IMG/VR virus record: IMGVR_UViG_3300007734_000581
Span: 1-32,454 of that record
Length of the DNA stretch: 32,454 nucleotides
Strand: one strand, 5' to 3'
Source: a virus
In this document: positions 4,597 through 32,306 of the stretch, piece after piece
Layout of the letters: each line of letters starts with the position of its first letter
How positions within the stretch are numbered: position 1 is the first letter of the stretch
Notes under the pieces: model-generated
Seen by the model: only the letters and a program-made list of their open reading frames with translations
What the model was told of the DNA's origin: nothing
The model's database searches: none
Program-made: the position numbers and the translations under genes

Positions 4597-6309
4597 ATGA
4601 ATCCGCACCAATACCTAGTCCCACCTGTCCCGGTCGACGCAGCGGACGCCCAGCGCTGGCAGGAATCGCGGCGGCGGCGACGACTGCTGGAAGGGATGTG
4701 GGGTATCGACCTCGAGCAGAGGATTAGGCTGCATTTCGGCATTGTTCGGCGGATGATTCTGGGGCCGAAGTCGAAGAGCCGTAACCTCTACCGGCGGCTG
4801 GTGACTGAGCTTTCGGTTCTTTACCGGACCCCCCCCAAGGTATCGAATCGCTATGGCGGCGCGGATGCTCTGTTGGGGCCGGATGGGATGTTGGCACGTT
4901 CGGGGCTTTGGCCGCAGATGCGCAGTGTCCAGACCTTCGCCCTCGGGGTCCGGGAAGAGGCGGTTAGGCTCGAGTTTGATCCGATCAACGGTCGTCCGGC
5001 TTATCGTCAGGTACATGCGGACAATATGGTGGGCCGGTCGCGGGCGCTTGACCCTGGCGTCCCGGTCGAGATTCGGGAGTTGCGCTGGTACGAGCTCCCC
5101 GGGATGGGCGGGCGATGGGCGTGGGATATCCTCTCGATCGAAGACCCTGACCGGCCCTTCTACCGGGTCGAGGAGGTCCGAGGCGACGGCCGGGACGGCG
5201 AGGACATCACCCGGCTAGTGCTGGGGCGGGACGTCAGTGGGGATGCGTATCCGTATCGGTGGACGCAGGGACCTCGGCGAGGGATGCCGTTCCTGCCGTA
5301 TGTGCTGTACCATGCCGATATCTCGTCGCAGCTCTGGGACCCTTACGCATGGATTGAGCTGGCGGACGCGGCGCTGGATGTGGCTGCGGCTTGGACGTGG
5401 TGGGGTCATCTGCTCTTCAAAGCTTCATGGCCACAAAGATACGGAATCGACGTCTATGTCGAGGGCATGATTCCCGAGGAGACGGATGGCGGGCTTCGAA
5501 CCGAGATGCCTGCGGACGCGTCGAGCCTCATCCACCTGCGGACGAGGTCCGGAGCCGTGAATCCACAGGTCGGCCAGTGGCAACCATCGGCCGACATCCT
5601 GAATACAGCGCAAGCTATCGGACTTTTTGAACGCGGCTGCTCCGATATCGCTGGCATCGACGCGGCGCACATAGTCCGGGAGTCGTCCGACGCGTGGTCG
5701 GGTGCGGCGTTGTCGATTTCGCGCGATGGAAAACGGGAGGCGCAAGCGCTGTATCAGCCGCAGTTTGAGCCTCGGGATGTCGAGCTAATGGAAAAATCGG
5801 CGGCGCTGGTCAATCTTTCGGAAACGCTTTCGGCCCCGCTCCCCGAGGAGGGGTATCGCATCCTCTACGCGCCTATCGGGCTGGCCTACCAGGAACTCGA
5901 GAGCCGGCGCAAGCACCACACCGAGCTCATCACGCAGGGCCGGATGTCGCTGACCGAGGCCTACCAAGAGGAGCACCCCGGTCTAACCCTCGAGGAGGCA
6001 CGCCGGGCGCTGGTCGATGCCCGGGTGGAGGCTCTACGCATCGAGTCCGAGGCCAAGGCGCAAGCGCAAGCCGAGGGCCTCCTCCCTGCCGAGACGCCGG
6101 CGCAAACCGAAGCCGAAGCCGAGGGCGAAGAGGAAGAGGTTGAGGAGCCCGAGGAAGAGATGGACGACGAGGACGAGGACGAATCCACGGATGAGGTCCC
6201 GATGGAGCAGGTGCACGCGCTAGTCCTCGATGCGCTGGATGATGGCGATGTCGAGGCAGCCAAGCAGATCCTGAAGGGGAGCAAGTATGCCGTATCGTCC
6301 ACCGACTGA
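4597..6309 (+). CDS. portal protein
   Basis: The 570-residue product sits directly after the terminase and before the scaffold and capsid genes, the standard portal position. The long mixed alpha/beta body includes tryptophan-rich segments (DVAAAWTWWGHLLFKASWP) and a helical stem-like region (MEKSAALVNLSETLSAPLPE, then ELESRRKHHTELITQGRMSL). The C-terminus from about residue 470 is alanine/glutamate-rich and then extremely acidic (a run of about 30 residues, mostly Glu and Asp), a tail seen on several phage portals. SD GAGG precedes ATG 4597. The dodecameric ring function is inferred from position and length. The gene overlaps the next by 23 bases. Confidence 0.82.
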   Translation: MNPHQYLVPPVPVDAADAQRWQESRRRRRLLEGMWGIDLEQRIRLHFGIVRRMILGPKSKSRNLYRRLVTELSVLYRTPPKVSNRYGGADALLGPDGMLARSGLWPQMRSVQTFALGVREEAVRLEFDPINGRPAYRQVHADNMVGRSRALDPGVPVEIRELRWYELPGMGGRWAWDILSIEDPDRPFYRVEEVRGDGRDGEDITRLVLGRDVSGDAYPYRWTQGPRRGMPFLPYVLYHADISSQLWDPYAWIELADAALDVAAAWTWWGHLLFKASWPQRYGIDVYVEGMIPEETDGGLRTEMPADASSLIHLRTRSGAVNPQVGQWQPSADILNTAQAIGLFERGCSDIAGIDAAHIVRESSDAWSGAALSISRDGKREAQALYQPQFEPRDVELMEKSAALVNLSETLSAPLPEEGYRILYAPIGLAYQELESRRKHHTELITQGRMSLTEAYQEEHPGLTLEEARRALVDARVEALRIESEAKAQAQAEGLLPAETPAQTEAEAEGEEEEVEEPEEEMDDEDEDESTDEVPMEQVHALVLDALDDGDVEAAKQILKGSKYAVSSTD

Positions 6310-11667: not shown

Positions 11668-12165
11668 ATGGCCGTCGTAACCAGTAAGCTCGTCGCCTCG
11701 ATCATCGGCTCGGATGCCTCCGGAACGCCGGTAAATTACACCTTTGGGCCATTCCCCGGGAATATGGACCTGAGCCTCGAGGGCCTGCAGGCTGGCCAGG
11801 TGGAGGGGATTGCGGTGCTGTCGAACGGCACTTTTTTGGAGATGGTCGAGGGCGACGACGTCCCGGTGACCTTTTCGATTACTTTGCTGCATGACGGAAA
11901 GCTGATCGATAATTCGACCGGAAAGCCGCTGAATATGGCGCTCAAGCTCGGAACCTACGCCAGCGGAACCACCAAAGACCCGGGTGGGCTGGTGTGGTCC
12001 GTGGATGTCGTCGTCACGATGACCCGGTCTGGTGTATCGTCTACGATCACCCTGCGTAATTGCCGGCTGACTGCTTCTTTCGCCACCGCGAAGGAGGGCA
12101 ACACCATCAGCCTGTCGGGCACGGCCTACGGCACCGGAACCCTTCGTCCTGTGACGATCGCCTGA
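11668..12165 (+). CDS. major tail tube protein
   Basis: The 165-residue protein is all-beta by pattern: VTSKLVASIIGSD; YTFGPFPGNMDLSLEGLQAG; DVPVTFSITLLHDGKLI; SVDVVVTMTRSGVSSTITLR; EGNTISLSGTAYGTGTLRPV. It lies immediately upstream of the frameshifting tail assembly chaperone genes and the tape measure, the conserved order in siphophages and myophages. A strong AAGGAGG precedes ATG 11668. It would polymerise as hexameric rings around the tape measure protein. Confidence 0.78.
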   Translation: MAVVTSKLVASIIGSDASGTPVNYTFGPFPGNMDLSLEGLQAGQVEGIAVLSNGTFLEMVEGDDVPVTFSITLLHDGKLIDNSTGKPLNMALKLGTYASGTTKDPGGLVWSVDVVVTMTRSGVSSTITLRNCRLTASFATAKEGNTISLSGTAYGTGTLRPVTIA

Positions 12166-12202: not shown

Positions 12203-12682
12203 ATGGAATCCATCACCGTCGGACGCCGGGTAATCCCCATCGTCCCCCCCGATAGACTCGACATCGTCGCCTTGCTCGAGGCGTTCATCGCGGCCCGATC
12301 CAAGCCTGCAGCGCTTGTCCGCCTGCGACTGGCAGCTATCGGGCTCGGGTGGTGGGCGGCAGTGGACTCCATGCCTGACCGGACCCCGGCGGACAAGGCC
12401 GAGCGAGCTGGGGCGCGACCTCCGTTTGCCCGTCTCGAGGAGGTTGACTGCGACCTGTTGATTCTCGGGCGTCGGGTGGGGCAGGCCCTCGGGGATGACG
12501 CGGTCGAGGCCCGGGTCGAGGGTGACAGGCTGGCAGCGGATTGGTTCCGCCTGGTCCTCCCGTCGGATGCAGCTCGGGAGAATGCCCGGGGAAACTCCGA
12601 GGGGAGGGCGGTCGCTGGTGGCGCTACCTCCTCCGACTCGGGAGCCAGCATTATCGCGACCCCTTCGCCTGCTTTGGGCTAG
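12203..12682 (+). CDS. tail assembly chaperone, short form (gpG-like)
   Basis: The 159-residue zero-frame product starts at ATG 12203, behind GGAGAAG, and is mostly helical (LDIVALLEAFIAARSKPAAL; LEEVDCDLLILGRRVGQALG). The gene order tail tube, chaperone, overlapping -1 frame, tape measure is the classical G/GT arrangement of lambda-like tails. A slippery heptamer at 12589-12595 lets some ribosomes switch to the downstream frame. The tail after the slip site in the zero frame is Gly/Ser/Ala-rich. The protein is not expected in the finished virion. Confidence 0.8.
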   Translation: MESITVGRRVIPIVPPDRLDIVALLEAFIAARSKPAALVRLRLAAIGLGWWAAVDSMPDRTPADKAERAGARPPFARLEEVDCDLLILGRRVGQALGDDAVEARVEGDRLAADWFRLVLPSDAARENARGNSEGRAVAGGATSSDSGASIIATPSPALG

Positions 12683-12825
12683 ACCCCCGGAGGCTGGCCA
12701 TGCTCGTTGAATGGGATCAAATCGAGCGCGAAGAAGAACAGCGCACGGATACCCCATCCGATAGCGTGGCCCCTGCCCCCGATGCAGAGCCCGGCGAGCG
12801 ATTCGCTTGGCTCATGGGGGGATGA
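12203..12825 (+). CDS. tail assembly chaperone, frameshifted long form (gpGT-like)
   Basis: If the ribosome slips back one base on GGGAAAC (12589-12595), the first 131 residues, ending Arg-Gly-Asn, continue in the -1 frame from CTC at 12595 to TGA at 12823-12825. This adds 76 residues, 207 in total. The added part has LRLGSQHYRDPFACFGLDPR and a charged helix VEWDQIEREEEQRTD, like T domains that recruit tail tube subunits to the tape measure. The overlapping frame has no convincing start codon or SD of its own, supporting expression by frameshift. Confidence 0.75.
12589..12595 (+). promoter_or_regulatory. -1 ribosomal frameshift slippery site
   Basis: GGGAAAC is a textbook X XXY YYZ heptamer. 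In the zero frame it reads G-GGA-AAC, so both the P-site and A-site tRNAs can re-pair on GGG and AAA after slipping. Lambda uses GGGAAAG at the equivalent place. The codon phase was checked: zero-frame codons here begin at 12587, 12590 and 12593. Confidence 0.85.
12601..12633 (+). promoter_or_regulatory. stem downstream of the slippery site
   Basis: GGGGAGG (12601-12607) can pair with CCTCCTC (12627-12633): seven base pairs, one of them G-U. The stem starts five bases after the heptamer, close to the spacing usual for frameshift stimulators. The 19-base loop is GC-rich and could take part in a pseudoknot. Folding was judged by eye. Confidence 0.5.
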
Positions 12826-13346
12826 TGGTCAGCGATCGATTCTGGCGGATTCAATCTGACTTCTGGAACTCGCATCCCCGAGCACAGAAGAAGGCGGAAA
12901 AGCTATATATCCGCGACAAGCCAGGCCAGCGGGTGTGGGCTTACCTGAATGATGGTTCGCAGTGGGTGGCCAAACCGCGAAAGAATCCGGAAGGGATGTA
13001 CTTTTCGGTAGTCCGCCTTGATCCGAAGCTGCAATCAGACATGCTTCGATTGATCACCGACCTTGCCCCGATGCTCACGGATGCGTTTGATCGGCATTTC
13101 GGGCAGCTTGTGATCGATGCGTTCTTCGCGTGGCCGGAAAAAACAGGCCTGTCTAAATCTATGCTCGAACTGCGTTACTTCACGACCAATAATGCAGAGC
13201 GGTTCCACGGGGCCATCGTCCCCCGGGCTCCTTATTCGATCTATATCAAAGGCCGTCCGTTCTATCGGTTGCTGGAATCACAAGCGATTCCAACCGCCAC
13301 GAAAATCGCCGATGCGGTAAAGCTGGGGTTCCGTCGCCATGAGTAG
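12822..13346 (+). CDS. hypothetical tail-region protein, 174 aa
   Basis: ATG 12822 overlaps the preceding TGA (ATGA) behind a run of six Gs; ATG 12825 is an equally placed alternative. The protein lies between the tail chaperones and the tape measure. It includes ARPRAQ-type basic stretches near the N-terminus (HPRAQKKAEKLYIRDKPG), a helix LQSDMLRLITDLAPMLTDAF, and LELRYFTTNNAERFHGAIVP then PYSIYIKGRPFYRLLESQAI. No known motif identifies it. Tail-completion or tape-measure accessory roles are possible. Eight-base overlap with the tape measure start. Confidence 0.55.
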   Translation: MMVSDRFWRIQSDFWNSHPRAQKKAEKLYIRDKPGQRVWAYLNDGSQWVAKPRKNPEGMYFSVVRLDPKLQSDMLRLITDLAPMLTDAFDRHFGQLVIDAFFAWPEKTGLSKSMLELRYFTTNNAERFHGAIVPRAPYSIYIKGRPFYRLLESQAIPTATKIADAVKLGFRRHE

Positions 13347-15333
13347 CTACACCCTCGAGATCATCGGAAGCATCGCTCAAGCGCAAAAAGAATTCGCCAA
13401 GATTCCTGGCTTTACCGAGTCAGCAGCGGCAAAAGCTGCGATGGCATGGGCAAAGAATCAGGAGAAGATGCGTCGAGAGGCAGAGAAGACGGCAAATAAG
13501 ATTGCGAAGGAGATGGATGGAGCGTCGCAAGATGCAGGTAAGAGCCTCGACGCGTTGAAAACCATTGGCGAGAAATCGATCGGTGGAATCGTCGGGGACC
13601 TGGCTGATATGGCTGGCGCGTTGGGCGCGCTTGGGCCGGCGGGGATGCTGGCGGTCGGTGGCCTGCTGGCGATCGGTGGCGCTGCAGTCGGTATCGCGGC
13701 GACCGTGACTGCGGTCATCGAGCTCGAGCGGGCGGCGCTTGATTACGTGGCGGCTCTCGAGGAGGTCGACGCTATCGACCTCGTCACCGACGCGCAAAAG
13801 CAGCAGGTCGTCGAGGCTAATGCGGCGCTCGATGCACTCGGGATGGTGGCGAAATCGCTTGCGGTCGTGCTCGCTGCCGAGCTGGGGCCGGCTATTGCGG
13901 ACACTGCTATCTTCTTGGCTGACATCGGATTGCAATTCCTCGATGTTGCGAATGCAGTGTTCAGGACTCATTCGCTGCTCGAATCGTTAGCTATTGCATT
14001 CGTCGACACTTTCGCCCGGTCGCTGATTCAGCCGATCGAAATGATGATGAGGTTCCACCAAGCCTTGGCTCTAGTTGAGCAGTCGCTAGGGGTGACGGAC
14101 GGGGTAAACAGTAAGATTTACGCAAGCTATGAGCGCTTGGTCGGCGGCATCGGACGGACGGTAACCGGATTCGATGGGCTAAAGGATTCCGCGACCGAAA
14201 CGAATGGTGAAATGAGCCGAGGGGAGCGGCTGGCGGCAGAACTGGCGAGCAAGCTGTCAGCGTCCAGCGCGGCGACCCACGGAGCGGCCAGCGCGCATCG
14301 GCAGGCGGCGGACGGGGCACGGCAACACGCAGCGGCAACCGCGTCCCTCCTCGGGATTATTGCGGAGTCGGGGGCGGATCAGCTTACTGATTTCCAGCGA
14401 GAGACCGCCGAAATCGAATCAGCCTACCAGCGTCGGGTGGATGCCGCTACCGAGGCCTACAACAAATCCGCGCAAGCCGCACAGGACTTCGCCCTGCTCG
14501 AGCAGGCTCTCTCCGAGGCGGCAGCCCGACGGGACCGGGACCGGACGGACGCGGAGCTAGCCGACCTCGAACGGCGCACGCAGGCCGAGCTATCGGCGCT
14601 GGCAGTGGTCGAACAGGCCAAGGCCGATGAGCGAGCCAGAGAACAAGCGGCCCTCGATGAGGCTGCGACGAGGCAGGCCGAGCGCGATGCGTCGACCGCT
14701 GCGGCTATGGAGGCGCTGCAAGCGAGGTTCACTCAGCTGTTGTTCGACAGGATTTCCATGGTGCATGACACCATGGCAGAAGAAAGACAAGCGAATATTG
14801 CCGCGCTCGAGGAGCGTTTGGCCAACGATGAGCACCTGACCGCCGCAAAGCGACAGGAGCTGCAGACCCGCCTGGACAGCGAGCGCAACGCGCTCACCGC
14901 GACGGCAAGAGCACAACGGGCCGTGACTGCGTTTCAGATTCTGCTGCAGGGCGCACTGGCGATGATTCAAGCCGTGGCTGTAGCTCCTCCACCGTTCAAC
15001 GCGGCTACGATCGCGGCGCAAGCTGCATTGGTGGCGCTCAATACTGCTGCGGCATTAGCTGCGCCCTTGCCGAAATTCCATTCGGGGTCAGGTCGCATGG
15101 CCCCGGACGAGACGCCAGCGATTATCCGTAGGGGTGAGGCGGTTCTTTCGGAACGAGCGGTGCAGGAGCTAAATCGGGGCAATATGGGCGTTTTGAATCA
15201 GCCGCAGGTTCAACAGGTCTATTGGAATGGTCGGCTGATGTCCGAGGTAATGGGGATGGCGTTCGCGACTCCGGGGCCTGCACGACGATTCGTCGAAGCT
15301 CGCATGCCGACTGGACGCGGATATAGAGGCTAA
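13339..15333 (+). CDS. tail tape measure protein
   Basis: The 664-residue protein is the longest of the core tail genes. It has an N-terminal helical segment, a Lys/Glu-rich coiled coil (residues about 35-65), and a Gly/Ala-rich hydrophobic region (GPAGMLAVGGLLAIGGAAVG and onward, residues about 95-130). More helices, long Glu/Arg/Ala coiled coils at about 350-510, and a second hydrophobic stretch (AVTAFQILLQGALAMIQAVA) follow. The C-terminal FHSGSGRMAPDETPAIIRRG then EAVLSERAVQEL matches a block common at the ends of tape measures. At about 0.15 nm per residue this predicts a tail near 100 nm. It acts as length ruler and is ejected with the DNA. Confidence 0.85.
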   Translation: MSSYTLEIIGSIAQAQKEFAKIPGFTESAAAKAAMAWAKNQEKMRREAEKTANKIAKEMDGASQDAGKSLDALKTIGEKSIGGIVGDLADMAGALGALGPAGMLAVGGLLAIGGAAVGIAATVTAVIELERAALDYVAALEEVDAIDLVTDAQKQQVVEANAALDALGMVAKSLAVVLAAELGPAIADTAIFLADIGLQFLDVANAVFRTHSLLESLAIAFVDTFARSLIQPIEMMMRFHQALALVEQSLGVTDGVNSKIYASYERLVGGIGRTVTGFDGLKDSATETNGEMSRGERLAAELASKLSASSAATHGAASAHRQAADGARQHAAATASLLGIIAESGADQLTDFQRETAEIESAYQRRVDAATEAYNKSAQAAQDFALLEQALSEAAARRDRDRTDAELADLERRTQAELSALAVVEQAKADERAREQAALDEAATRQAERDASTAAAMEALQARFTQLLFDRISMVHDTMAEERQANIAALEERLANDEHLTAAKRQELQTRLDSERNALTATARAQRAVTAFQILLQGALAMIQAVAVAPPPFNAATIAAQAALVALNTAAALAAPLPKFHSGSGRMAPDETPAIIRRGEAVLSERAVQELNRGNMGVLNQPQVQQVYWNGRLMSEVMGMAFATPGPARRFVEARMPTGRGYRG

Positions 15334-18400: not shown

Positions 18401-18599
18401 TGACTGCGACTCCGGCGAAATCCCGGTAATCGCGCTCAAGGTCGTCCCGGATGTGGCGAGCTCGGCGTCAGTCACCGACCCCACCCACTGGGTCTACGGT
18501 CGCTTGGATGGGTCTGTGCAGCAGGCCCAGGTGAGCGGAAAGACAGGTCAATCCGAGTATGTCCGGGTCGAGTCAATGACCGTCCGGGAGATCGTCTAA
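15411..18599 (+). CDS. large tail protein with Asp-box (sialidase-like) motifs
   Basis: ATG 15411 follows a very strong GGAGGGGGG; the TTG at 15396 is an in-frame alternative. The 1062-residue product is beta-rich. Three Asp-box-like repeats are visible: SDDDGSTW (about 201-208), the degenerate SASLGSNW (about 255-262), and SDDGNETW (about 351-358), with strand patterns such as GQLVLYAREGGYWYVWRS between them. Asp-boxes occur in beta-propellers of sialidases and other glycan-acting proteins, so residues about 100-430 are a propeller candidate. A second beta domain follows (about 470-630), resembling a concanavalin-like sandwich. Position after the tape measure suggests a tail-tip or adhesin protein. 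Catalytic sialidase residues were not identified. Confidence 0.7.
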   Translation: MANRIIPANGRAALVGFALPDTRLTLDELQAGSSYTQSGPHPGSDVPSSSTSQWSLVVSGEQSSTLYVRAANSGLPEPGGAEGIYSDGSAASTYRGWSPSNFLCNWSAAEYSPVGTLVYARGTPSVAVIPSSQKVAVAYNSDTTLYFRLYDPFTNTYGARKTISTALSSGSLTAICCLPRSERLLIVVAGPNDLIGVAWYSDDDGSTWTQYSAAVFNSGDILTGGNWVKCRMYAVGDDIVWMMYADNNRFYIFSSASLGSNWTRVAYKTGVYRSDGAPLPDGRMLYIQQSTSTGSPKAVIVPSVWDSPDFTNATNIGSPTLQPVEMACVVEPSGQLVLYAREGGYWYVWRSDDGNETWSKSEMGAWTSGNAVTTTYPTDIALVLGAGATWLAHRWNAAVGDEGTASVALAQFGGWSNLISGYPKYTTRQYDVGDGERLGFGITGLVGSSGGANIVYTHTWAPFDIPSDNTTQWSATGTGTAALSNDSLDISTTSQTKYYSNAPTYATSANGKMVLLADVQVVSGGAVATNDIAIRIKMSTGSTGVDFAIRFKTDTIRVRDINGATNYDVSVDCTSRVQVFAGVQPDGTVDVAYRRPYETKWTKIVGANFTLDASITTNSLQWGHLASGTANSRWRLLCVAQDLPQSAYRFADSVTTSLRSLYGRILTARPVPLGDTATAGATFLSAISGPAVYNELHTIDPVYDYGAERIFWDISPSLAEEWRSTGTTEAIFEWAPSEVSKTTDTQLGSRSLVVGFFGSNFQTAYLEADAGSGYVTLGTYNGGTGFDTGLTAIVAGDQVTPNTSTTADGGRYLQRSEMVGAVAVVNGTYCYITRQEEGGWTQSDTRRARLTVDRAVTSGAVTLIARNGLLIVHNVTTAYRKYRIRIPSQSTPDGFFRLAALVVGGLVVPGLPWDWGWSEQLESNTTDEVSRRGTLRRKQEGPPRKALTFSWSTSGAPLYRLRAGVNLDYLSPHSSIGATGAVATHKDVPWLMSGLMRDCDSGEIPVIALKVVPDVASSASVTDPTHWVYGRLDGSVQQAQVSGKTGQSEYVRVESMTVREIV

Positions 18600-20239
18600 T
18601 GCCTCCTCGCATTCAGGTCCGAGCGGGACGGCCAGAGTATCTCCTCGAGCTGCGGCTCGCCGGAACGCCATATCGGTTTGGCTCGATCCCCCTCCGAGTC
18701 CCTCGGGCCGATGGGACGACGACGACTTGGCAAGAGGGGCTGATCGCGGTCGAGGGCCTTCCCCGGTCGGCGGACTCTGCTGCGGTGACCATCGCCAGCG
18801 GGTCGGTGGACTGGGCGCGACTGGCCTCGAGGGGGCAGGACCTGGGCTCGGCTCGGGCCACGCTGTATCGGTGGTGGGCCGGGCAGGTGCTCGAGCAGGC
18901 CGAGGTGGTGCTAGAGGGTGGGGTCGATGCGCCAGAGTATGGCGACATCAACGAGCCTTTCACGCTCTCGATCACGGTCGAAGCGTGGCGAGATCGCGCC
19001 CTCATCCCCAGTGCGACGATGCGGTGTGACTCCTCGACCTGGCCCGTGGATACTGCGGCGGTCCTCGACGAGCCTGCACGCGGAGCACCCTACCCCATCC
19101 CCATCGGTCGGCCCGGGGCTGCGGCTTGGGATGCGGCGGATAATCTAGTCGAGGCTGGGGCGGTGATCGCGGCATCCCCGGCCTACCTCGTGGAGTATCA
19201 CGACTCAGGGATTGCGCGCGACTTGTCAAAGCTGCTCATCGCGGGATGTCCGATACAGGCTAGTACCGTGTGGGTGATCGATGCATCGGATGGGCTCACC
19301 GAGGCGCGCACCGTCCAATATGCGTCCGACCTCCGAGGCCGGCGGGTGGCCTATGTCGATTTCGCCTCGGCGACCACATTGCGCGCCGTCGAGGGGCACG
19401 AATACGCGGTGGCATTTCCCCCGGGCCATGGGGGTATCTGGGATGTTGAGACCCAGAGCTACGCGCGTGGGGCTGGCTCCGTGCTCGTCGCGCTGTATGG
19501 GCCTCTCCTCGGTCGGCTCGAGCCGGGCTCATCGGTCGGCGTCCCCATCGACCTCGGGCGGATGGCGGCGCAGCGAGCATACCTTGACCGATTCGCGATC
19601 GATGGCGTTATTCGCGACACAACTTCGGTGCATGAATGGGTCGAGCGCGAACTAGCCCCCATCCTGCCGATAAGCTGGGTCCGTGGCCATGCCGGCTGGT
19701 ATTGGCTCGCTTGGCGGTGGGATGCAGCCCCGGAGGATGCCGTAGCCCTGCTCGACGTCGGGACCGGGAGGGTCAAGCGGCTGTCGCGGATTCGTGCGGT
19801 TCCAACCGAGGATATCTATAGCCAGTTCAGGCTGGAGTACGGATGCGGCGCGGATGGAGCTCCGCTTCGTCGGCGGATTTTGGCGGCGGAAGCGGACCCG
19901 AATGATACCCGGGTGCGGGCTAACTGGCGTTGCTGGCAGGCTAGAGCGCGACAGCAGGCGAGGGATGCTGGCGGCGGGAGCGAGTGGGCGCAGACGAGCC
20001 AGGTGATACAGGATGACGCGACGGCTGATCGGGTGATCGAGTGGTTAGCGGCTCGACATGCCACCCCCCCGGTCGAGGCGACCTACGAGGGAGGCCCCGA
20101 GCTCGAGGCGCTTCAGCTCGGGGATGTGGTTCTCGTCACTGACCCGGATATGTATTTCTCTCGCCGGATCGCCCTCGTCCGAGACATCGTCCCCGGCGAG
20201 GTCGTTCGCGTAGACCTCTGGCTGCTCCAAGCGCGATAG
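18599..20239 (+). CDS. putative tail hub / tail-tip protein, 546 aa
   Basis: The start overlaps the previous TAA by one base (TAATG). The protein begins PPRIQVRAGRPEYLLELRLA, with many beta segments in the first 350 residues. Further on are segments SWVRGHAGWYWLAWRWDAAP and DIYSQFRLEYGCGADGA, and a C-terminal LQLGDVVLVTDPDMYFSRRI then VRVDLWLL. The last two resemble the C-terminal strand pairs of tail hub proteins that close the tail tube. No lysozyme or peptidase motif is seen. It was identified from neighbours (large tail protein before, fibres after) and length. Confidence 0.55.
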   Translation: MPPRIQVRAGRPEYLLELRLAGTPYRFGSIPLRVPRADGTTTTWQEGLIAVEGLPRSADSAAVTIASGSVDWARLASRGQDLGSARATLYRWWAGQVLEQAEVVLEGGVDAPEYGDINEPFTLSITVEAWRDRALIPSATMRCDSSTWPVDTAAVLDEPARGAPYPIPIGRPGAAAWDAADNLVEAGAVIAASPAYLVEYHDSGIARDLSKLLIAGCPIQASTVWVIDASDGLTEARTVQYASDLRGRRVAYVDFASATTLRAVEGHEYAVAFPPGHGGIWDVETQSYARGAGSVLVALYGPLLGRLEPGSSVGVPIDLGRMAAQRAYLDRFAIDGVIRDTTSVHEWVERELAPILPISWVRGHAGWYWLAWRWDAAPEDAVALLDVGTGRVKRLSRIRAVPTEDIYSQFRLEYGCGADGAPLRRRILAAEADPNDTRVRANWRCWQARARQQARDAGGGSEWAQTSQVIQDDATADRVIEWLAARHATPPVEATYEGGPELEALQLGDVVLVTDPDMYFSRRIALVRDIVPGEVVRVDLWLLQAR

Positions 20240-21082: not shown

Positions 21083-22570
21083 ATGGCCGTCACCCTTGCC
21101 ACGCTCGGCACCGCAAAGCGAATCACGCTGTCCGCCACCCCGAATGTCGCGACAGAAGTCAATATGCCTGCATTCGCGAACGTGGTGGAGGTGCAATTCA
21201 TCACCAATGACGGCAAGGTGGCCGAATCCGGGACCGATAATGCGGCCATCGGAAGCGACTTTACCACCCTCCAATCCGACACCCTATACCGAATCGAACT
21301 GCTCCCCAAGGCCGGTGTGACGACCGCACAGAAACGCTATCTAGCGAGCGCCACGGGGTCGACTGTCGTCGAAGTCCGAGCGCTCCGGAGCGCACTTCTA
21401 GGCGCTGGGGTCTCGACCGGCGGCGGCGGGGGTGGTGGCGTAACCGATTTGCAGACGGCTTACGATAATGGAGCCACGATTACCACCGCAGGGTCGACAG
21501 CCATTGCTCTGACCCTGACGAGCGGGGGGCTTACGGTCGCTGGGTCGGGTGCGGTCGACCTCGGGTTTACCGGCACGGATGTCGGTTCCTTCAAGGTAGG
21601 CTCGGGCGCGGTCGATATTCAGTCGACGTCCACTGTGGATATTGATTCATCGGGCGGTGAGATTCGAATCGGAAACGATGCGAATGCATACAATATCAAG
21701 GTGGGAACCGGAGCAGCGGCGAGGGATATCACGGTCGGGAATCTCACCGGGGCAACGACCGTCACCCTCCGAGCCGCGAATAGTATTTCACTGAATACGA
21801 ATGGGGGAATCGACATCGGGGCAGCGGACGGGTCGACGGCCATCAATATCGGCACCTCGGGGTCATCGACTCGAGCTGTGGCGGTGGGGTCGACGGTCAG
21901 CGCGTCGAGCCTGACGCTTTCGGCGGGGACTGGCGCGCTGGCGATAAGCGGTGGTGGTGACGTAACGATCAGCGACGGCAACCGAGCCGGGTCGACCTGG
22001 GGCGCGCCGATCAAACTGTCAGCGGCGTCGAGTGAATGGAGCACCCTCGAAACGAATAACGGAAGCGAAGTAAGCCTTATCAAGGCGATCAATAACGCTC
22101 ACACGGCCGCGACGATCGCTCAGGTGGTGTATGCCGAGACGACCACGGCCACGACCCCCAGCCCGTTGACCACGTACACTGCGTTGACGGGGCTTTCCGC
22201 TTCAATCACGCCAAAGAGCGCTAGCAACACCGTGCTGGTCACTGTCAGCGTCCCCGTGACGATCACTCGAGCCACGGCAGGCAACGGCTGCGGATTGCGA
22301 GTCAAGCGAGGGTCGACGGTGGTGTGGGAATCGACGGATGACGCCAGCGGCGCTTATGTGCCTTTCGTTTCTGCTGGCGGATCAACGAGCATGGTCCTGA
22401 ACACGGTAATCTCCGCAACCTTCCGCGATTCGCCGGCTACGACCTCGTCCACAACGTATAGCGTCGAGGGCCGGGTGAGGGCGTCTACCTCGACCGGGAC
22501 CTGCACATTCATCTTTGCCGGGTCGACGGTCACAACGCCCGGAACCATCCTCCTGCAAGAGGTGCGCTAA
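21083..22570 (+). CDS. tail fibre protein, 495 aa
   Basis: ATG 21083 follows GCAGGAGGG; the GTG at 21068 precedes that SD and is rejected. Domains by pattern: an N-terminal beta domain (1-105), a glycine linker at about 113-120, and a long Gly/Ser/Thr/Ala-rich repetitive stalk with recurrent short strands (SGGLTVAGSGAVDLGFTGTD; SLNTNGGIDIGAADGSTAIN; ISGGGDVTISDGNRAGS) resembling a beta-helix or triple-stranded fibre. A C-terminal globular domain from about 350 (LSASITPKSASNTVLVTVSV then VTITRATAGNGCGLRVKRGS and EGRVRASTSTGTCTFIFAGS) has a TNF-like or jelly-roll look and is the likely receptor-binding head. The stop overlaps the next ATG by one base. Confidence 0.7.
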   Translation: MAVTLATLGTAKRITLSATPNVATEVNMPAFANVVEVQFITNDGKVAESGTDNAAIGSDFTTLQSDTLYRIELLPKAGVTTAQKRYLASATGSTVVEVRALRSALLGAGVSTGGGGGGGVTDLQTAYDNGATITTAGSTAIALTLTSGGLTVAGSGAVDLGFTGTDVGSFKVGSGAVDIQSTSTVDIDSSGGEIRIGNDANAYNIKVGTGAAARDITVGNLTGATTVTLRAANSISLNTNGGIDIGAADGSTAINIGTSGSSTRAVAVGSTVSASSLTLSAGTGALAISGGGDVTISDGNRAGSTWGAPIKLSAASSEWSTLETNNGSEVSLIKAINNAHTAATIAQVVYAETTTATTPSPLTTYTALTGLSASITPKSASNTVLVTVSVPVTITRATAGNGCGLRVKRGSTVVWESTDDASGAYVPFVSAGGSTSMVLNTVISATFRDSPATTSSTTYSVEGRVRASTSTGTCTFIFAGSTVTTPGTILLQEVR

Positions 22571-22887
22571 TGCGGCCGACGATTACTGACGCGATTCGCA
22601 GCTTGGCCCCGGATGCCGCGTTCTCGGTGGATGCTGGCGCTATCGTCGCATGGGAGTCCAGCGTCCCCCAGCCCAACCAAACGGCGATCCAAGCGGAACT
22701 TGTCCGGCTTATCGCTGCGTATGACGCAGACGAATGGAAACGAAACCGGCAGGAAGAATATCCGGGTCTAGATCAGCTCATCGTCGCTCTCTGGGAGCAG
22801 ACGGTCGAGGGCAGGCCAGCGAGCGCGGCCGAGGTCCAAACGATTCGTGAGGCGATCAAGGCTAAATATCCGAAGCCGGGGGCCTGA
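22570..22887 (+). CDS. XkdW-like tail-associated protein, 105 aa
   Basis: The N-terminus (ITDAIRSLAPDAAFSVDAGA...WES) and C-terminus (QEEYPGLDQLIVALWEQTVE...IREAIKAKYPKP) match the common pattern of small proteins near phage tail fibre genes. These have a 'YPs..DQLdaLw' motif and a terminal 'IkakYPKP' and are sometimes called XkdW-like. They are often thought to help fibre assembly, but their role is not firmly known. The gene is joined to both neighbours by one-base overlaps (TAATG and TGATG). Confidence 0.6.
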   Translation: MRPTITDAIRSLAPDAAFSVDAGAIVAWESSVPQPNQTAIQAELVRLIAAYDADEWKRNRQEEYPGLDQLIVALWEQTVEGRPASAAEVQTIREAIKAKYPKPGA

Positions 22888-24536: not shown

Positions 24537-24858
24537 CGGCTTCTTTCTTTCCGTTTGGCGCGCGACATAGCTTGACGCTGTCCGCGCGCAGTTCGAGCGA
24601 TTGACGCTTGACTCCGTCCTTTTCGTATTCGCGCTGTGACATTTCCCCTCTGACCACGACTTCACGACCCTTGACGAGATGGGGCTTTACTGCGTCCCAA
24701 TGCGCACCCCAGGCGCTGACGGAAACCCATGTGGTCACGGCTTTGTCGCCATGACCCGAGGTGCATCCCACCGTGAATGAATGCACAGTCGACTTTCCGA
24801 CATCTCGGGACGTTGCATCCCGGCCGATGAATCCGTGGATGGTTGAATGAATGCTCAT
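24517..24858 (-). CDS. ssb: single-stranded DNA-binding protein
   Basis: The 113-residue protein has the bacterial SSB pattern. An OB-fold opens with IHGFIGRDATSRDVGKSTVH and contains VTTWVSVSAWGAHWDAVKPH, LVKGREVVVRGEMSQREYEK and SLELRADSVKL. It ends in the acidic tip ADEEVPF, equivalent to the SSB tail that recruits repair and replication proteins. A perfect AAAGGAGG precedes ATG 24858, and that ATG overlaps the stop of the nuclease gene as ATGA. It is shorter than host SSBs, as usual for phage forms. It would coat single strands for annealing and replication. Confidence 0.88.
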   Translation of the reverse strand: MSIHSTIHGFIGRDATSRDVGKSTVHSFTVGCTSGHGDKAVTTWVSVSAWGAHWDAVKPHLVKGREVVVRGEMSQREYEKDGVKRQSLELRADSVKLCRAPNGKKEADEEVPF

Positions 24859-25493
24859 TTGGCCTCCTTTAGCTTTTGCTTACGCTTTTCGTGCATCGCC
24901 AACATGGTTCGTGCACAGGTAAACTCCGTCTCACACATCCACAGGACGTCGAGCGGAATCCATTGTTCACGGTAAATCGGGGCATTCCGGCCCAAGTGTA
25001 GGACCATCGCCCCAGCTAGCTTGTCGTATCCGTTCTGCCTCCAAGCGATGGAATAGCCTCCGATTTGTGTATACGAATGCCGGTCAGCGGTGGGTAGCTG
25101 TCCTGATTCGTTGGTAGACTTCGTCTTTAGGTCGACGAGAATCAATTTCCCGTCGACCTCCACCACCAAATCAATCCGGCCACCGAACGCCATTTCACGC
25201 GGAACCCCTGCGATGACCCTGACCTCGGACGCTGGCAACCCGCCGGGGAGTCGATGGAGCAGAGGCTCCCGGTCCCACCGCCACTGGCACCACGCTTGCC
25301 ACGCTGGAAGCAGCTCGTCGGGGACGAGGTCGACCGCGTCAGCGAATGAGCGCTCGATCAGCGAATGGATAGCAGTCCCGAGCCTAGCCGCCTCTTCGAC
25401 GGCGGCCGATTTATAGCTGCTTTTCATTTGAGCCACGACCTCGGAAACCGAGGGGATCGGCTGCCCATCGAGGAAGTAGTCACCCGGAGGCAT
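24855..25493 (-). CDS. PD-(D/E)XK nuclease of the RecB-like exonuclease group
   Basis: The 212-residue protein shows the catalytic order of this fold. The first is a helix with H43 (LGTAIHSLIER). Next come D108 in GGRIDLVVEVDG and D121-x-K123 in KLILVDLKTKS, then Q143 and Y147 in YTQIGGYSIAW. Such enzymes resect double-stranded ends to make single strands for an annealing protein, and here the ERF annealase and an SSB are in the same operon. The N-terminal YFLDGQPIPSVSEVVAQMK is typical of phage members. The start overlaps the previous gene by 14 bases with a G-rich SD. Confidence 0.83.
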   Translation of the reverse strand: MPPGDYFLDGQPIPSVSEVVAQMKSSYKSAAVEEAARLGTAIHSLIERSFADAVDLVPDELLPAWQAWCQWRWDREPLLHRLPGGLPASEVRVIAGVPREMAFGGRIDLVVEVDGKLILVDLKTKSTNESGQLPTADRHSYTQIGGYSIAWRQNGYDKLAGAMVLHLGRNAPIYREQWIPLDVLWMCETEFTCARTMLAMHEKRKQKLKEAK

Positions 25494-25758
25494 CGACCAC
25501 CCCCGGGCCTAGGGCGTAATCGACCAGCTCCCCGTGATGCCCAGGGATGCCTGTGGTCCATAGCCCGATGAGGCGTTGGTCATCCAAGGCGGCTACCCCG
25601 AGCGGGGTCCAGCCGGTATGGTCGTCGATCCACCCGACGTCCAGGTGACTACCATCGGGGAGCGCCAGCATCCCACCCGCACGGCCGGTGATGCGGTCAC
25701 CAGCATCCCAATACAAGAACACTCGATATCCGCCTTGGAATTTCAGGTTCCGTTTCAT
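25480..25758 (-). CDS. hypothetical protein, 92 aa
   Basis: ATG 25758 overlaps the ERF stop as ATGA, the arrangement usual in this genome; ATG 25770 (four residues longer) is the alternative. The product is beta-rich: GYRVFLYWDAGDRITGRAGG, LDVGWIDDHTGWTPLGVAAL, IGLWTTGIPGHHGELVDYAL. No recognised motif. It lies between the annealase and the nuclease, so a role in recombination or modulation of host nuclease is possible but unproven. Confidence 0.6.
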   Translation of the reverse strand: MKRNLKFQGGYRVFLYWDAGDRITGRAGGMLALPDGSHLDVGWIDDHTGWTPLGVAALDDQRLIGLWTTGIPGHHGELVDYALGPGVVDASG

Positions 25759-26333
25759 TTTTTCGTCCATTGATCGAATGCACCACGCTGCGTGGTGCCT
25801 TCCTCCAGGACCTGCCGCAGCGCCCGGAGCGCAGAGGGGTCGCGGTCCTTGATCGGGCTCTTACCGAGGCTGACCAGCCAAGCGTCGACCGCCTCTGGCT
25901 GCGCGTCCAGAGGATGGGGAGTCATCGCCACGACCGGAGCTGGGGACGCAGGCTCTCGGCGCTGCCCCGCTTCGCCGTCGTCGTCCTCCGCAGGGACGCC
26001 GAGGGCCGCCATCAGGCTGTACCTACGGAGATAGGTGCAGGTACTCCCGATGGCCTGCGGGCTAGCGTCCTTCGCTTGGGCGCGGATGGTGCCCCATGCC
26101 CATTCGCGCTCTCCGTACATGAGGATCGTGCGGACCGATACCGACGTCCCCTCCACCTCTACCGACTGCGTCCACCCGATGCCAGCCGCAGAGAGCGGCC
26201 CACGGATCGCCTCGACCACCGAGGCCAAACTCGCATACGACGAGCGGAAGTGGGGATTTTTGCTGTCTTTCGCTGCGCCGGACATGGCACCTTGGGCCGT
26301 CGCAAGAGCGGCGGCGAACGATGTGTCACTCAT
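25755..26333 (-). CDS. ERF-family single-strand annealing protein
   Basis: ATG 26333 has AGGAG five bases upstream and gives 192 residues; GTG 26339 would precede the proper spacing. The ERF signature is clear: LATAQGAMSGAAKDSKNPHF then RSSYASLASVVEAIRGPLSA (residues about 10-50). Further on is AKDASPQAIGSTCTYLRRYS followed by LMAALGVPAEDDDGE (about 86-121). The C-terminal third is a Pro/Ala linker and a small helical domain. ERF proteins anneal complementary strands in phage recombination and genome circularisation, working with a nuclease and SSB such as those encoded just downstream. Confidence 0.9.
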   Translation of the reverse strand: MSDTSFAAALATAQGAMSGAAKDSKNPHFRSSYASLASVVEAIRGPLSAAGIGWTQSVEVEGTSVSVRTILMYGEREWAWGTIRAQAKDASPQAIGSTCTYLRRYSLMAALGVPAEDDDGEAGQRREPASPAPVVAMTPHPLDAQPEAVDAWLVSLGKSPIKDRDPSALRALRQVLEEGTTQRGAFDQWTKK

Positions 26334-26342
26334 AGGCACTCC

Positions 26343-28491: not shown

Positions 28492-28585
28492 TGTAACGCG
28501 ATGTTACTTACTCATGATTCAACCTGCGGCCTTCACTGGGCGCGGGGATGCATGCAGCTCTATGACGGCGTAACAGGGCGTTACA
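28492..28585. promoter_or_regulatory. two GTAAC-N5-GTTAC palindromes at the primase start
   Basis: GTAAC-GCGAT-GTTAC (28493-28507) spans the start codon, and GTAAC-AGGGC-GTTAC (28570-28584) lies 77 bases later, both with an exactly five-base spacer. Single half-sites follow at about 28640 (CGTAACA) and 28674 (TGTTACA). Two exact ten-base patterns this close are unlikely by chance. They may be operators for autoregulation or binding sites for the replication initiator. Confidence 0.55.
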
Positions 28586-29505
28586 CTGACGTTTCACCCG
28601 GTGAGCAGGTCCCGGAGTGGGTCCGGAGGGCTGCCGGGCGTAACACGGAACGGGTACATAGCGTGAGTGTCCCTGTTACATGGGATGTTTCGTTGTTTCG
28701 GGGGCTGCGGGAGACTGCTCCAATGGCCAAGACTTGGGGCTGGCCGAAGGTCGTCGAGTTGTTGGGCCGGTATCGGAGGGTGTCAGCTAAAGCGGATCTC
28801 CCTCTGTGGTCGGCGGCAAGCTGGCCGGCAGGCGCGTCGACGTGTCGAGCTGCGGATGTAGAGGCCGTGGGGATGCTGGTGCTCGATTACGACGACGGCT
28901 CCATGACCCTCGAGGATGCTGCTCGGCGGTGGGGACGCTGGCAGTCACTGATCCACACATCGCCCAGCCACCGTCCAGAGGCCCCCCGGTTCCGGGTCGT
29001 CGTCCCCTTGGCCCGGCCCGTCCCGGCCTCGGACTGGCCTCGAGCGTGGCGTTGGGCGGCTCGATGGGGTGGCGCGGTGGATGGTGCCGCGAAGGATGTC
29101 GGCCGGCGATACTATCTGCCCGGTGGGGATGCACCCGAGGTCTGGCGGCTGCTGGTGCAAGGCGACCGGCGACCGTGGCTGCACCTCGACGTCGACCGCC
29201 TGCCGCCAGAGCCCACTACCCCTATCCGAGCCGTCATCCCGAGGCCTCCGTCGGGGCCGCTCCCCGAGGACGCAGCGAGGAGAGAGATAGCGGATCGTCT
29301 GAAGGCTGACCCCGACCTCCGAGCCAGTGCCGGCGTCCGGCTAGGAGGCCAAATCTCGAGCGGCAACGTCCGGGCCGTCCCCTGTCCCCAGTGCGGCGAC
29401 CGGAGTGTATGGTGGCCTCTCGCACCAACCGGAACACCAAAAGCCCTCTGCAACCACCGCAATAGCTGCGGATGGTCCGGATGGATCGACACCCTCCTCA
29501 CCTAG
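28501..29505 (+). CDS. archaeo-eukaryotic-type primase candidate with C-terminal zinc ribbon
   Basis: The 334-residue protein has a central block found in AEP/prim-pol-like phage and plasmid proteins. GMLVLDYDDGSMTLEDAARR carries acidic residues at D129-D132. LIHTSPSHRPEAPRFRVVVP then LARPVPASDWPRAW follow, and later GRRYYLPGGDAP. The first Asp pair and the following His-containing loop would be the metal and nucleotide site. A zinc-ribbon follows at the C-terminus (CPQCGD...LCNHRNSCGW: C295, C298, C317, C323). ATG 28501 has only a weak SD; ATG 28552 and ATG 28723 (MAKTWGW) are in-frame alternatives. It probably primes replication together with the downstream protein and helicase. Family call is moderate. 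Confidence 0.6.
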   Translation: MLLTHDSTCGLHWARGCMQLYDGVTGRYTDVSPGEQVPEWVRRAAGRNTERVHSVSVPVTWDVSLFRGLRETAPMAKTWGWPKVVELLGRYRRVSAKADLPLWSAASWPAGASTCRAADVEAVGMLVLDYDDGSMTLEDAARRWGRWQSLIHTSPSHRPEAPRFRVVVPLARPVPASDWPRAWRWAARWGGAVDGAAKDVGRRYYLPGGDAPEVWRLLVQGDRRPWLHLDVDRLPPEPTTPIRAVIPRPPSGPLPEDAARREIADRLKADPDLRASAGVRLGGQISSGNVRAVPCPQCGDRSVWWPLAPTGTPKALCNHRNSCGWSGWIDTLLT

Positions 29506-30413: not shown

Positions 30414-30643
30414 CACTACTCTTCAATAATAGAGAGATTTTTGAAAAACAAAAATGTGTTTTCAAAAAGAGGTGTCACAGTGTCACAAAACTCGAATCTG
30501 CCCGTACGAAGCTACGCAAATCCTGTGACACTTCTTTTTTGAGAAGTGTCACAAAATGGTCCAAAACATCGCGAAACCATCGCATCGAGCAGCACTACAC
30601 GGCTGTGACACACCTTTAGGACTTTATCCCAAGTAGTGTCACA
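30178..30643. other. iteron cluster, candidate replication origin
   Basis: Eleven TGTGACA/TGTCACA heptamers start at 30178, 30200, 30299, 30323, 30409, 30473, 30481, 30524, 30547, 30604 and 30637, in both orientations. All but the first extend to the octamer TGTGACAC. The better sites share CTGTGACACTWCT. Inverted pairs occur with 22-24-base offsets (30178/30200 head-to-tail; 30299/30323 and 30524/30547 facing). The pair at 30524-30535 and 30542-30553 forms perfect 12-base arms. An AT-rich stretch (30411-30470) lies in the middle. Random expectation for the heptamer is about 0.06 in this length. It precedes a helicase gene and follows a replication gene. Confidence 0.72.
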
Positions 30644-30752
30644 GCTGTGGATTGGACCTCATGTGGTTTCGAACAAAACAGCCGACTTTCAGCGAACTAA
30701 CCGACCGATTCCGATTTCCTGCAAATTTTCCCCTATATTAAGAGCAAAGCGC
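30414..30752. promoter_or_regulatory. 339-bp non-coding region ahead of the helicase
   Basis: It contains most of the TGTGACAC sites, an AT-rich dyad TTTTTGAAAA (30438-30447) / TTTTCAAAAA (30459-30468), and downstream a possible -10 box TATATT (30734-30739) for the helicase gene, without a clear -35 partner. Base composition is strikingly lower in GC than the rest of the genome. A 69-residue open frame across it (from GTG 30410) is judged not to be a gene. Confidence 0.65.
30438..30468. repeat. AT-rich perfect 10-bp inverted repeat in the origin region
   Basis: TTTTTGAAAA (30438-30447) and TTTTCAAAAA (30459-30468) are exact reverse complements around ACAAAAATGTG, which can extend the stem with a bulge. 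It sits between two facing TGTGACAC sites (30409 and 30473) and is the most AT-rich part of the window, suited to act as an unwinding element. Confidence 0.6.
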
Positions 30753-32306
30753 ATGAACGTCATTATAGGCCCACCGGGCACCGGAAAGACCACGACGATC
30801 CTAACCATCATCGAGGAGGCGCTAGCCAAAGGCACTCCACCGGGGAGGATCGGGCTCGTCAGCTTCACTCGGGCCGCAGTGGGCGAAGCGATCGAGCGGG
30901 CGTCAAAGCGGTTTGGAATTGACCCGAAGGAATTCCGATATTTCCGCACTTTGCATTCTTTGGGTTTTGAACTTTCGGGCAGGGAGCGCAAGGTGGTGAC
31001 GGAGGCCCAGGTCGCCCAGTGGCAGGCGGACGCGGGCTACGGGGGACAGGTCGAGGCCGACCTCGAGGGGTGGGAGGGGGCGCGCGCCGAAGGGGTGGCG
31101 GCGGTATGGGAGCTGTCTCGTTCGCTCCGATGTCATCCGCAGCGTGCCGTGGGACGCTGGCAGGGGGGCGAGGTCGACTGGCGAGCCGTCGAGAGGTACG
31201 GGGCACGGTATACGGCGTGGAAGCAGGAGATAGGGTGGATCGATTACACGGACATGCTTGAGGGCGCGCTGACCGTGGCACCGCCTGCCCTCGACCTCCT
31301 CGCCATCGATGAGGCACAGGACCTGTCACCGCTGCAGCAGGCCCTAGCAGCTCGGCTCCTCGGAGCGGCTCGGGAGGCCTATGTGGTCGGCGACGACGAT
31401 CAGGCGATCCATGCATGGGCAGGAGCGGACGCTGGCTACCTGCAGCGGCTGGCAGAGGCCCACGGGTATCGCGTGCTGTCGCAGTCGTACCGGGTGCCTC
31501 GACTGGCCCACCGAGCGGCACAGTCGGTGATCGGCAGGGTCAGGCAGAGGGTGCCAAAGGCCTATAGCCCTCGGGACGAGCTCGGGGAGCTGACCTCGGC
31601 GGAATGGGGCCGGATGCTGGGATGCAGGCTCATGGCGGCGCTTTCGGACGGTGCCGCCTTGCTCTGCCGCACGCGACGTCAGCTCCACCAGGCCGGACGC
31701 TGGCTGCTCGAGGCCGGGATCCCGTTCCGGTCCGAGCGTGGTGGTGTGGACCCGCTCGGAGCTGAACGACAGCTCGAGGCTGCTGTAGCGGTCTGTCGAG
31801 TCCAACAGGGGATGCGGCTCCGGGCGGTCGACCTCCAGGCACTGGCCACCCACTGTCGAGCAGGTGCGACACCCGGCCTGCCTCGGGGGACGCTGGCTCG
31901 ACTACGGCGGGTGGACGCTGATCCGAGTGACGGGGAGCTCGAGGCCCTCGGGGCCCGACCGCTGCTCGAGCGCATCGCACGGGAGGGGATGGAGGCGCTC
32001 GACACCGTCGACCCGGAGGCCAGGCGGTACTATCGTCGCGTCCTGCAGATCCGAGGCGGGATACCTCCGGTCCTGACCCTGACCACCTGTCACGCAAGCA
32101 AGGGCCGGGAATGGGCTCACGTGTTCATCGACGCGCAAATGACCCGGTATCAGGCCGATAGCATCGAGGAGGCCACGCCGTTAGGCGACGACGAGCACCG
32201 GGTAGCGTATGTCGCGGCGACTCGCACCAAATCGACACTCACGATTATCCAGCCGGAAGGCGCGAAACCGCGATACCATTATCCGATATTCCGCCGCCCG
32301 GCTTGA
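30753..32306 (+). CDS. superfamily 1 UvrD/PcrA-like DNA helicase
   Basis: ATG 30753 gives 517 residues and places Walker A (GPPGTGKTT, 6-14) right after the start, as in this family; GTG 30636 would add 39 residues of non-coding character. Motifs in order: Ia SFTRAAVGEAIER (38-50); TLHSLGFEL (66-74); II LLAIDEAQDLSPLQ (182-195); III VVGDDDQAIHAWAG (211-224); IV LSQSYRVP (242-249); V CHASKGREW (446-454); VI VAYVAATRTK (484-493). It hydrolyses ATP to unwind DNA 3' to 5' in the family generally. It lacks the long insertion domains of full-size UvrD. Its position after the iteron region suggests a replicative or recombination helicase. Confidence 0.87.
   Translation: MNVIIGPPGTGKTTTILTIIEEALAKGTPPGRIGLVSFTRAAVGEAIERASKRFGIDPKEFRYFRTLHSLGFELSGRERKVVTEAQVAQWQADAGYGGQVEADLEGWEGARAEGVAAVWELSRSLRCHPQRAVGRWQGGEVDWRAVERYGARYTAWKQEIGWIDYTDMLEGALTVAPPALDLLAIDEAQDLSPLQQALAARLLGAAREAYVVGDDDQAIHAWAGADAGYLQRLAEAHGYRVLSQSYRVPRLAHRAAQSVIGRVRQRVPKAYSPRDELGELTSAEWGRMLGCRLMAALSDGAALLCRTRRQLHQAGRWLLEAGIPFRSERGGVDPLGAERQLEAAVAVCRVQQGMRLRAVDLQALATHCRAGATPGLPRGTLARLRRVDADPSDGELEALGARPLLERIAREGMEALDTVDPEARRYYRRVLQIRGGIPPVLTLTTCHASKGREWAHVFIDAQMTRYQADSIEEATPLGDDEHRVAYVAATRTKSTLTIIQPEGAKPRYHYPIFRRPA

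Follow-up and report, generated by a model that had tools for sequence, protein, structure and literature searches.

A predicted programmed -1 frameshift in the probable tail assembly chaperone gene of a divergent uncultured phage

Introduction

Tail assembly chaperones of the G/GT type are produced as two proteins at a set ratio, which bind the tape measure and the tail tube and are absent from the virion. The slippery word of phage lambda is GGGAAAG, and a stimulatory RNA structure is frequent in the tail chaperone frameshifts of this type but is not required. Here, we describe a gene (12203-12825) within a 32,454-base stretch of viral DNA (IMG/VR virus record IMGVR_UViG_3300007734_000581, positions 1 to 32,454, with a G+C content of 61.5%; hereafter, the window), which very likely encodes the tail assembly chaperones of a long-tailed phage and is predicted, from its sequence and from those of its relatives, to work like lambda G/GT, with a -1 frameshift at a GGGAAAC heptamer. 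We refer to the product of the 0 frame as G and to the domain encoded in the -1 frame as T.

In lambda, G is described as binding the tape measure and T as binding the tail tube subunit, at a molar ratio of 30:1, and the same review terms the G/GT tail chaperone frameshift widely conserved despite low sequence similarity (PMC5009743). The window differs from lambda in its heptamer, in the absence of a detectable sequence relation to any profile, and in the presence of an intervening gene before the tape measure gene. In Burkholderia phage KL1, GGGAAAC is the site predicted for gp18/gp19, and an intervening tail gene is described between the chaperone and the tape measure, as it also is for HK97 and SPP1 (PMC3483164). 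By that description, KL1 and the window share both features, whereas the KL1 site directly precedes the stop codon of gp18 and yields a fusion of 264 residues, compared with 84 bases between the heptamer and the 0-frame stop and a predicted fusion of 207 residues in the window. GGGAAAC, read as G_GGA_AAC, is also the tail chaperone shift site reported for Caulobacter phage Colossus (PMC3556154) and for the haloarchaeal virus HCTV-1 (PMC5009743), which resemble the window as far as the site is described.

The probable chaperone gene and its slippery heptamer

The original prediction had GGGAAAC in the correct phase for slippage, which is borne out, as the frame of ATG 12203, a start codon with GGAG 6 bases upstream, decodes this region as CGG GGA AAC, and re-pairing in the -1 frame gives GGG-AAA. 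This -1 frame is open from 12526 to 12822 (99 codons) and closed by TGA 12823, and translation reproduces the 76 codons after the slip and the 207-residue fusion that had been claimed (coordinates of all features are collected in Table 1).

A near-identical contig (loci L002-L006, record G004), which we count together with the window as one lineage, differs from it at 28 of 623 bases, with no differences at all between 12576 and 12653. Of the 16 codons altered before the slip, 15 keep their residue in frame 0, and of the 6 altered after it, 4 keep theirs in the -1 frame. The overlap that would be read twice has 3 altered codons, with 2 of them synonymous in the -1 frame and none in frame 0, although these are small numbers. 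Codon usage before the slip clearly favors frame 0 (+41.9).

A conserved -1 domain behind changing slippery words

The evidence that carries the prediction comes from more distant relatives. Five single-protein scans of viral contigs retrieved the near-identical contig only, and the useful relatives came from scans that used the tail protein or the terminase-like protein, namely, L011 (terminase 57% identical), G002 (terminase 42% identical), and L021 (tail protein 49% identical). Together with the window, these are all the distinct lineages with a readable region. Two terminase scans of genome contigs found nothing, and the terminase relatives L012-L014 (contigs of 4146 to 6122 bases), which have no tail-protein match, lie outside the four lineages.

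In all four lineages, the gene at the chaperone position carries a second domain in the -1 frame. Profile searches against 2254 six-frame open reading frames (ORFs) connect these domains stepwise, with the profile of the window T alone finding L011 at 3e-6, the profile of window and L011 finding G002 at 3e-4 (L021 reached only 0.06), and the profile of all three finding the -1 domain of L021 at 2e-6, in each case as the best match outside the training sequences. Links between single sequences are uneven, with G002 and L021 connected at 2e-4 and L011 matching L021 at only E 4, and the window T is missing among the matches of the G002 and L021 single-sequence searches. The window and L011 have in common the core YRDPFAxFxL, located at 12652-12681 in the window.

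The slippery word changes while the domain is kept. Canonical heptamers of the form XXXYYYZ (Y being A or T) are found in phase within the overlap in three of the four lineages, each of them different: GGGAAAC in the window, TTTTTTA at 10888 in L011, and GGGTTTT at 2904 in L021. The best candidate in G002 is GGATTTTTCC (L019 reverse complement 1858-1867), read as T_TTT_TCC, in which only the P-site tRNA re-pairs perfectly; this candidate follows the final stop of the -1 frame (just before 1849) and precedes the conserved block. The program PRFect is described as including a "fivetwo" motif for backward frameshifts (PMC10885494), and TTTTTCC may be what this name means, an interpretation that is our own. 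A conserved -1 domain combined with changing slippery words fits a programmed frameshift of the lambda G/GT type. That the word has been repeatedly exchanged within one group of uncultured phages (GGGAAAC, TTTTTTA, and GGGTTTT), with G002 using the noncanonical T_TTT_TCC, is a tentative proposal to which we give slightly less than an even chance.

RNA structure after the heptamer

A stem of seven pairs had been proposed downstream of the site. It can indeed be formed, starting five bases 3' of the heptamer, with -10.0 kcal/mol when its loop is left open (the best fold of the 33-mer reaches -16.5), but it is not supported as the main structure, the best predicted fold in the 75 nucleotides after the heptamer being a longer hairpin (12600-12670). 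A pseudoknot can also be drawn on the smaller stem, as 12610-12615 is complementary to 12656-12661. The 75 nucleotides after the heptamer of G004 fold at -41.8 kcal/mol (z of -3.0), and across the region 10 of 356 segments of 75 nucleotides fold at least as well as that of the window. At other lengths, the z value in the window is -0.54 (55 nucleotides), -1.42 (105 nucleotides), or between -1.0 and -1.6 (50, 60, and 90 nucleotides). In L021, folding of 50 nucleotides gives a strong stem that follows the site directly (z of -2.3). A stimulatory hairpin is plausible in the window on these folding predictions, although it is not common to the relatives.

Alternative readings

Among the alternatives, the one that survives best, although we consider it quite improbable, is that an independent gene occupies the -1 frame, overlapping the first one and starting at TTG 12541 or, by reinitiation after TAG 12680, at ATG 12700, with a product of 41 residues. 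The original prediction had the -1 frame lacking a start signal, which does not hold, as ATG 12700 is preceded at six bases by GGAGG, even though this ATG is located 3' of the conserved T core. This start is found 17 bases past the 0-frame stop and its GGAGG is kept in G004, and codon usage favors the -1 frame from there on (+10.0 for 12700-12822). At a similar place of its T domain, G002 has GTG 1966 with the purine-rich GAGGAGGAG upstream (L019 reverse complement 1948-1968), and these two ribosome-site-like stretches make a minor internal product possible besides the fusion. The product of ATG 12700 cannot, however, supply the conserved core, which is encoded upstream of it, and the starts located further upstream (TTG 12541 in the window and the possible GTG 10837 of L011 and GTG 2883 of L021) have no evident ribosome site, while the -1 frame of G002 lacks ATG, GTG, and TTG codons upstream of 1966, a position that is already within the domain. 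Judged by their sequence context, none of the ATG, GTG, and TTG candidates would by itself start translation of the whole T part efficiently, and a separate gene leaves the in-phase heptamers of three of the four lineages unexplained.

Chance would mean an in-phase heptamer lying within an open but unused -1 frame. In-phase XXXYYYZ heptamers with A or T as Y occur 4 times in the 6564 in-phase positions of the 20 forward ORFs that we selected as genes, and only GGGAAAC at 12589 leads into a -1 frame that continues past the end of the gene, as the other three stop after 5, 18, and 25 codons. Codon shuffling of the 51-codon overlap produces at least one such heptamer in 7.0% of cases and base shuffling leaves the 76 codons open in 14%, so the window site by itself is suggestive only. 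With the -1 domain conserved in three divergent relatives, two of which have a different canonical word in the overlap, we regard chance as highly unlikely. A change of frame elsewhere or by other means, either ribosomes slipping at TTTGGGC (12673), a second word that is in phase and canonical in form, or transcriptional slippage, which the T6 run of L011 could suggest, has a negligible probability, as a slip at 12673 falls after most of the conserved block, TTTGGGC is altered at 12675 and 12677 in G004, and the runs at the window site are merely G4 and A3.

A programmed -1 frameshift in the tail chaperone genes, as originally predicted, is supported instead by the second domain in the -1 frame of every lineage, the profile links between these domains, the canonical heptamers in three lineages, the silent changes relative to G004, and the tape measure matches in G002 and L021. 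Several observations weigh against it. Neither G nor T has a tblastn match among 50,697 phage records or a match to a Pfam or PHROGs family, which is why we took the relatives as evidence; resemblance to known chaperones is not required of this type, in which low similarity is usual. The probability of finding a canonical word in at least three of the four lineages by chance (about 6e-4 by codon shuffling, with independence assumed) is indicative only because the lineages share descent, although their slippery words differ. No canonical heptamer is present in the chaperone overlap of G002, and folding after the site is no better than in shuffled sequences in both L011 and G002, so the structure is not conserved. 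AAG, not AAC, is described as the highly shift-prone second codon in Escherichia coli (PMC5009743), a rule that may not be that of the host. Last, codon usage between the slip and 12699 gives -3.2 for the -1 frame and +2.1 for frame 0, the 5th percentile of true genes being +2.1; this undecided usage could be due to dual coding, and an internal start at 12700 would give the same pattern.

The tail module

The gene at the chaperone position is located between the probable genes for the tail tube, identified by its position, and the tape measure. G002 and L021 have the gene for the tail protein followed by the chaperone gene, the intervening gene, and a long ORF, and the local order is kept in L011, where a 24-residue match represents the start of the long ORF. 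Matches to tape measure PHROGs were obtained with the long ORF of L021 (E of 3e-7) and with that of G002 (E of 5e-22), and the 664-residue ORF of the window has no tape measure match of its own in the family library search. The tail tube candidate has no match to a Pfam or PHROGs family, and its structure could not be predicted reliably, with a predicted local distance difference test (pLDDT) value of 34; the names of the tail tube and the chaperone are probable ones, given by gene order without a family match.

Searches with G itself were equally unproductive, with no match among PDB sequences, a weak predicted structure (pLDDT of 57), and nothing at E 0.001 in the fold searches, in which the top viral match was a tail assembly chaperone with an E of 1.2 that we did not take as evidence. 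The intervening gene has a weak match to the Pfam family CHU_C below the curated cutoff (E of 3.8e-4, 21 of 27 bits), which is probably spurious, as the relatives conserve this gene as part of the tail module. In tblastn against the phage records, the tail proteins of L011 and L021 and the intervening protein of G002 found nothing, and neither did the window ORFs 4597-6309 and 18599-20239.

Table 1. Position of the predicted frameshift elements and of the neighboring tail genes in the window
Feature	Coordinates	Strand	Description
Probable tail tube protein gene	11668-12165	+	Named by position; relatives in L011 (50%), L021 (49%), and G002 (31%)
0-frame gene, G-like chaperone	12203-12682	+	159 residues; ATG 12203, TAG 12680; 44% identity over 55 residues to L011; precedes the intervening gene and the tape measure gene
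Slippery heptamer GGGAAAC	12589-12595	+	Phase G_GGA_AAC; identical in G004
T-like domain, -1 frame	12595-12825	+	76 codons and TGA 12823; homologous -1 frame domain in L011, G002, and L021
Longer predicted hairpin, possible stimulator	12600-12670	+	Best fold of the 75 nucleotides after the heptamer, -39.2 kcal/mol, z of -2.75
Stem of the original prediction	12601-12633	+	12601-12607 with 12627-12633; seven pairs including one G-U, 19-nucleotide loop
Possible internal start, -1 frame	12689-12702	+	GGAGG (12689-12693), 6 nucleotides, ATG 12700; 41 residues
Intervening tail gene	12822-13346	+	Start overlaps the T stop (ATGA); relatives in L011, G002, and L021
Probable tape measure protein gene	13339-15333	+	664 residues; short similarity to ORFs of L011, G002, and L021

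Other genes of the window

Among the ORFs for head and tail that were scanned between 3008 and 23702, the majority lack a convincing match in Pfam or PHROGs and have hardly any relatives, or none, in the phage records, from which we conclude that this is a very divergent phage group. The gene at 9841-10362 matches phrog_22694 (unknown function, 8.6e-28) and resembles proteins of Bradyrhizobium, Micromonospora, Microcystis, and Streptomyces phages, its counterpart in the Bradyrhizobium phage being placed between the head-tail connector and adaptor genes. The phage loci L007, L008, and L010 clearly share this gene only, and L009 has a weak terminase match; all of them were kept outside the frameshift comparison. 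A 105-residue protein (22570-22887) is similar to proteins, mostly annotated as hypothetical, of marine cyanophages and a Pelagibacter phage. The minus strand carries exonuclease-like and Erf-like annealing genes (24855-26339), and the plus strand carries primase-like and helicase genes (28501-29505 and 30636-32306).

Proposed mechanism and significance

Under the frameshift reading, most ribosomes would read through to TAG 12680 and produce the 159-residue G-like protein, while a minority would re-pair from GGA-AAC to GGG-AAA on 12589-12595 and continue in the -1 frame to give the fusion; the hairpin just 3' of the heptamer may raise the rate of slippage. By analogy with lambda, the part common to both products would bind the tape measure protein, with T recruiting the tail tube subunit; the ratio of the two products would thus be set by how often ribosomes slip.

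GGGAAAC has already been reported for tail chaperones; the window contributes a further predicted site to this long-known class without altering any principle. The conserved -1 domain is of practical value for annotating the tail module in a phage group hardly recognized by profile libraries, as it marks the chaperone and thereby the genes that probably encode the tail tube and the tape measure. If the slippery word has indeed been exchanged among these lineages, the group would be a natural series on how a needed frameshift rate is kept while the signal and the RNA structure change.
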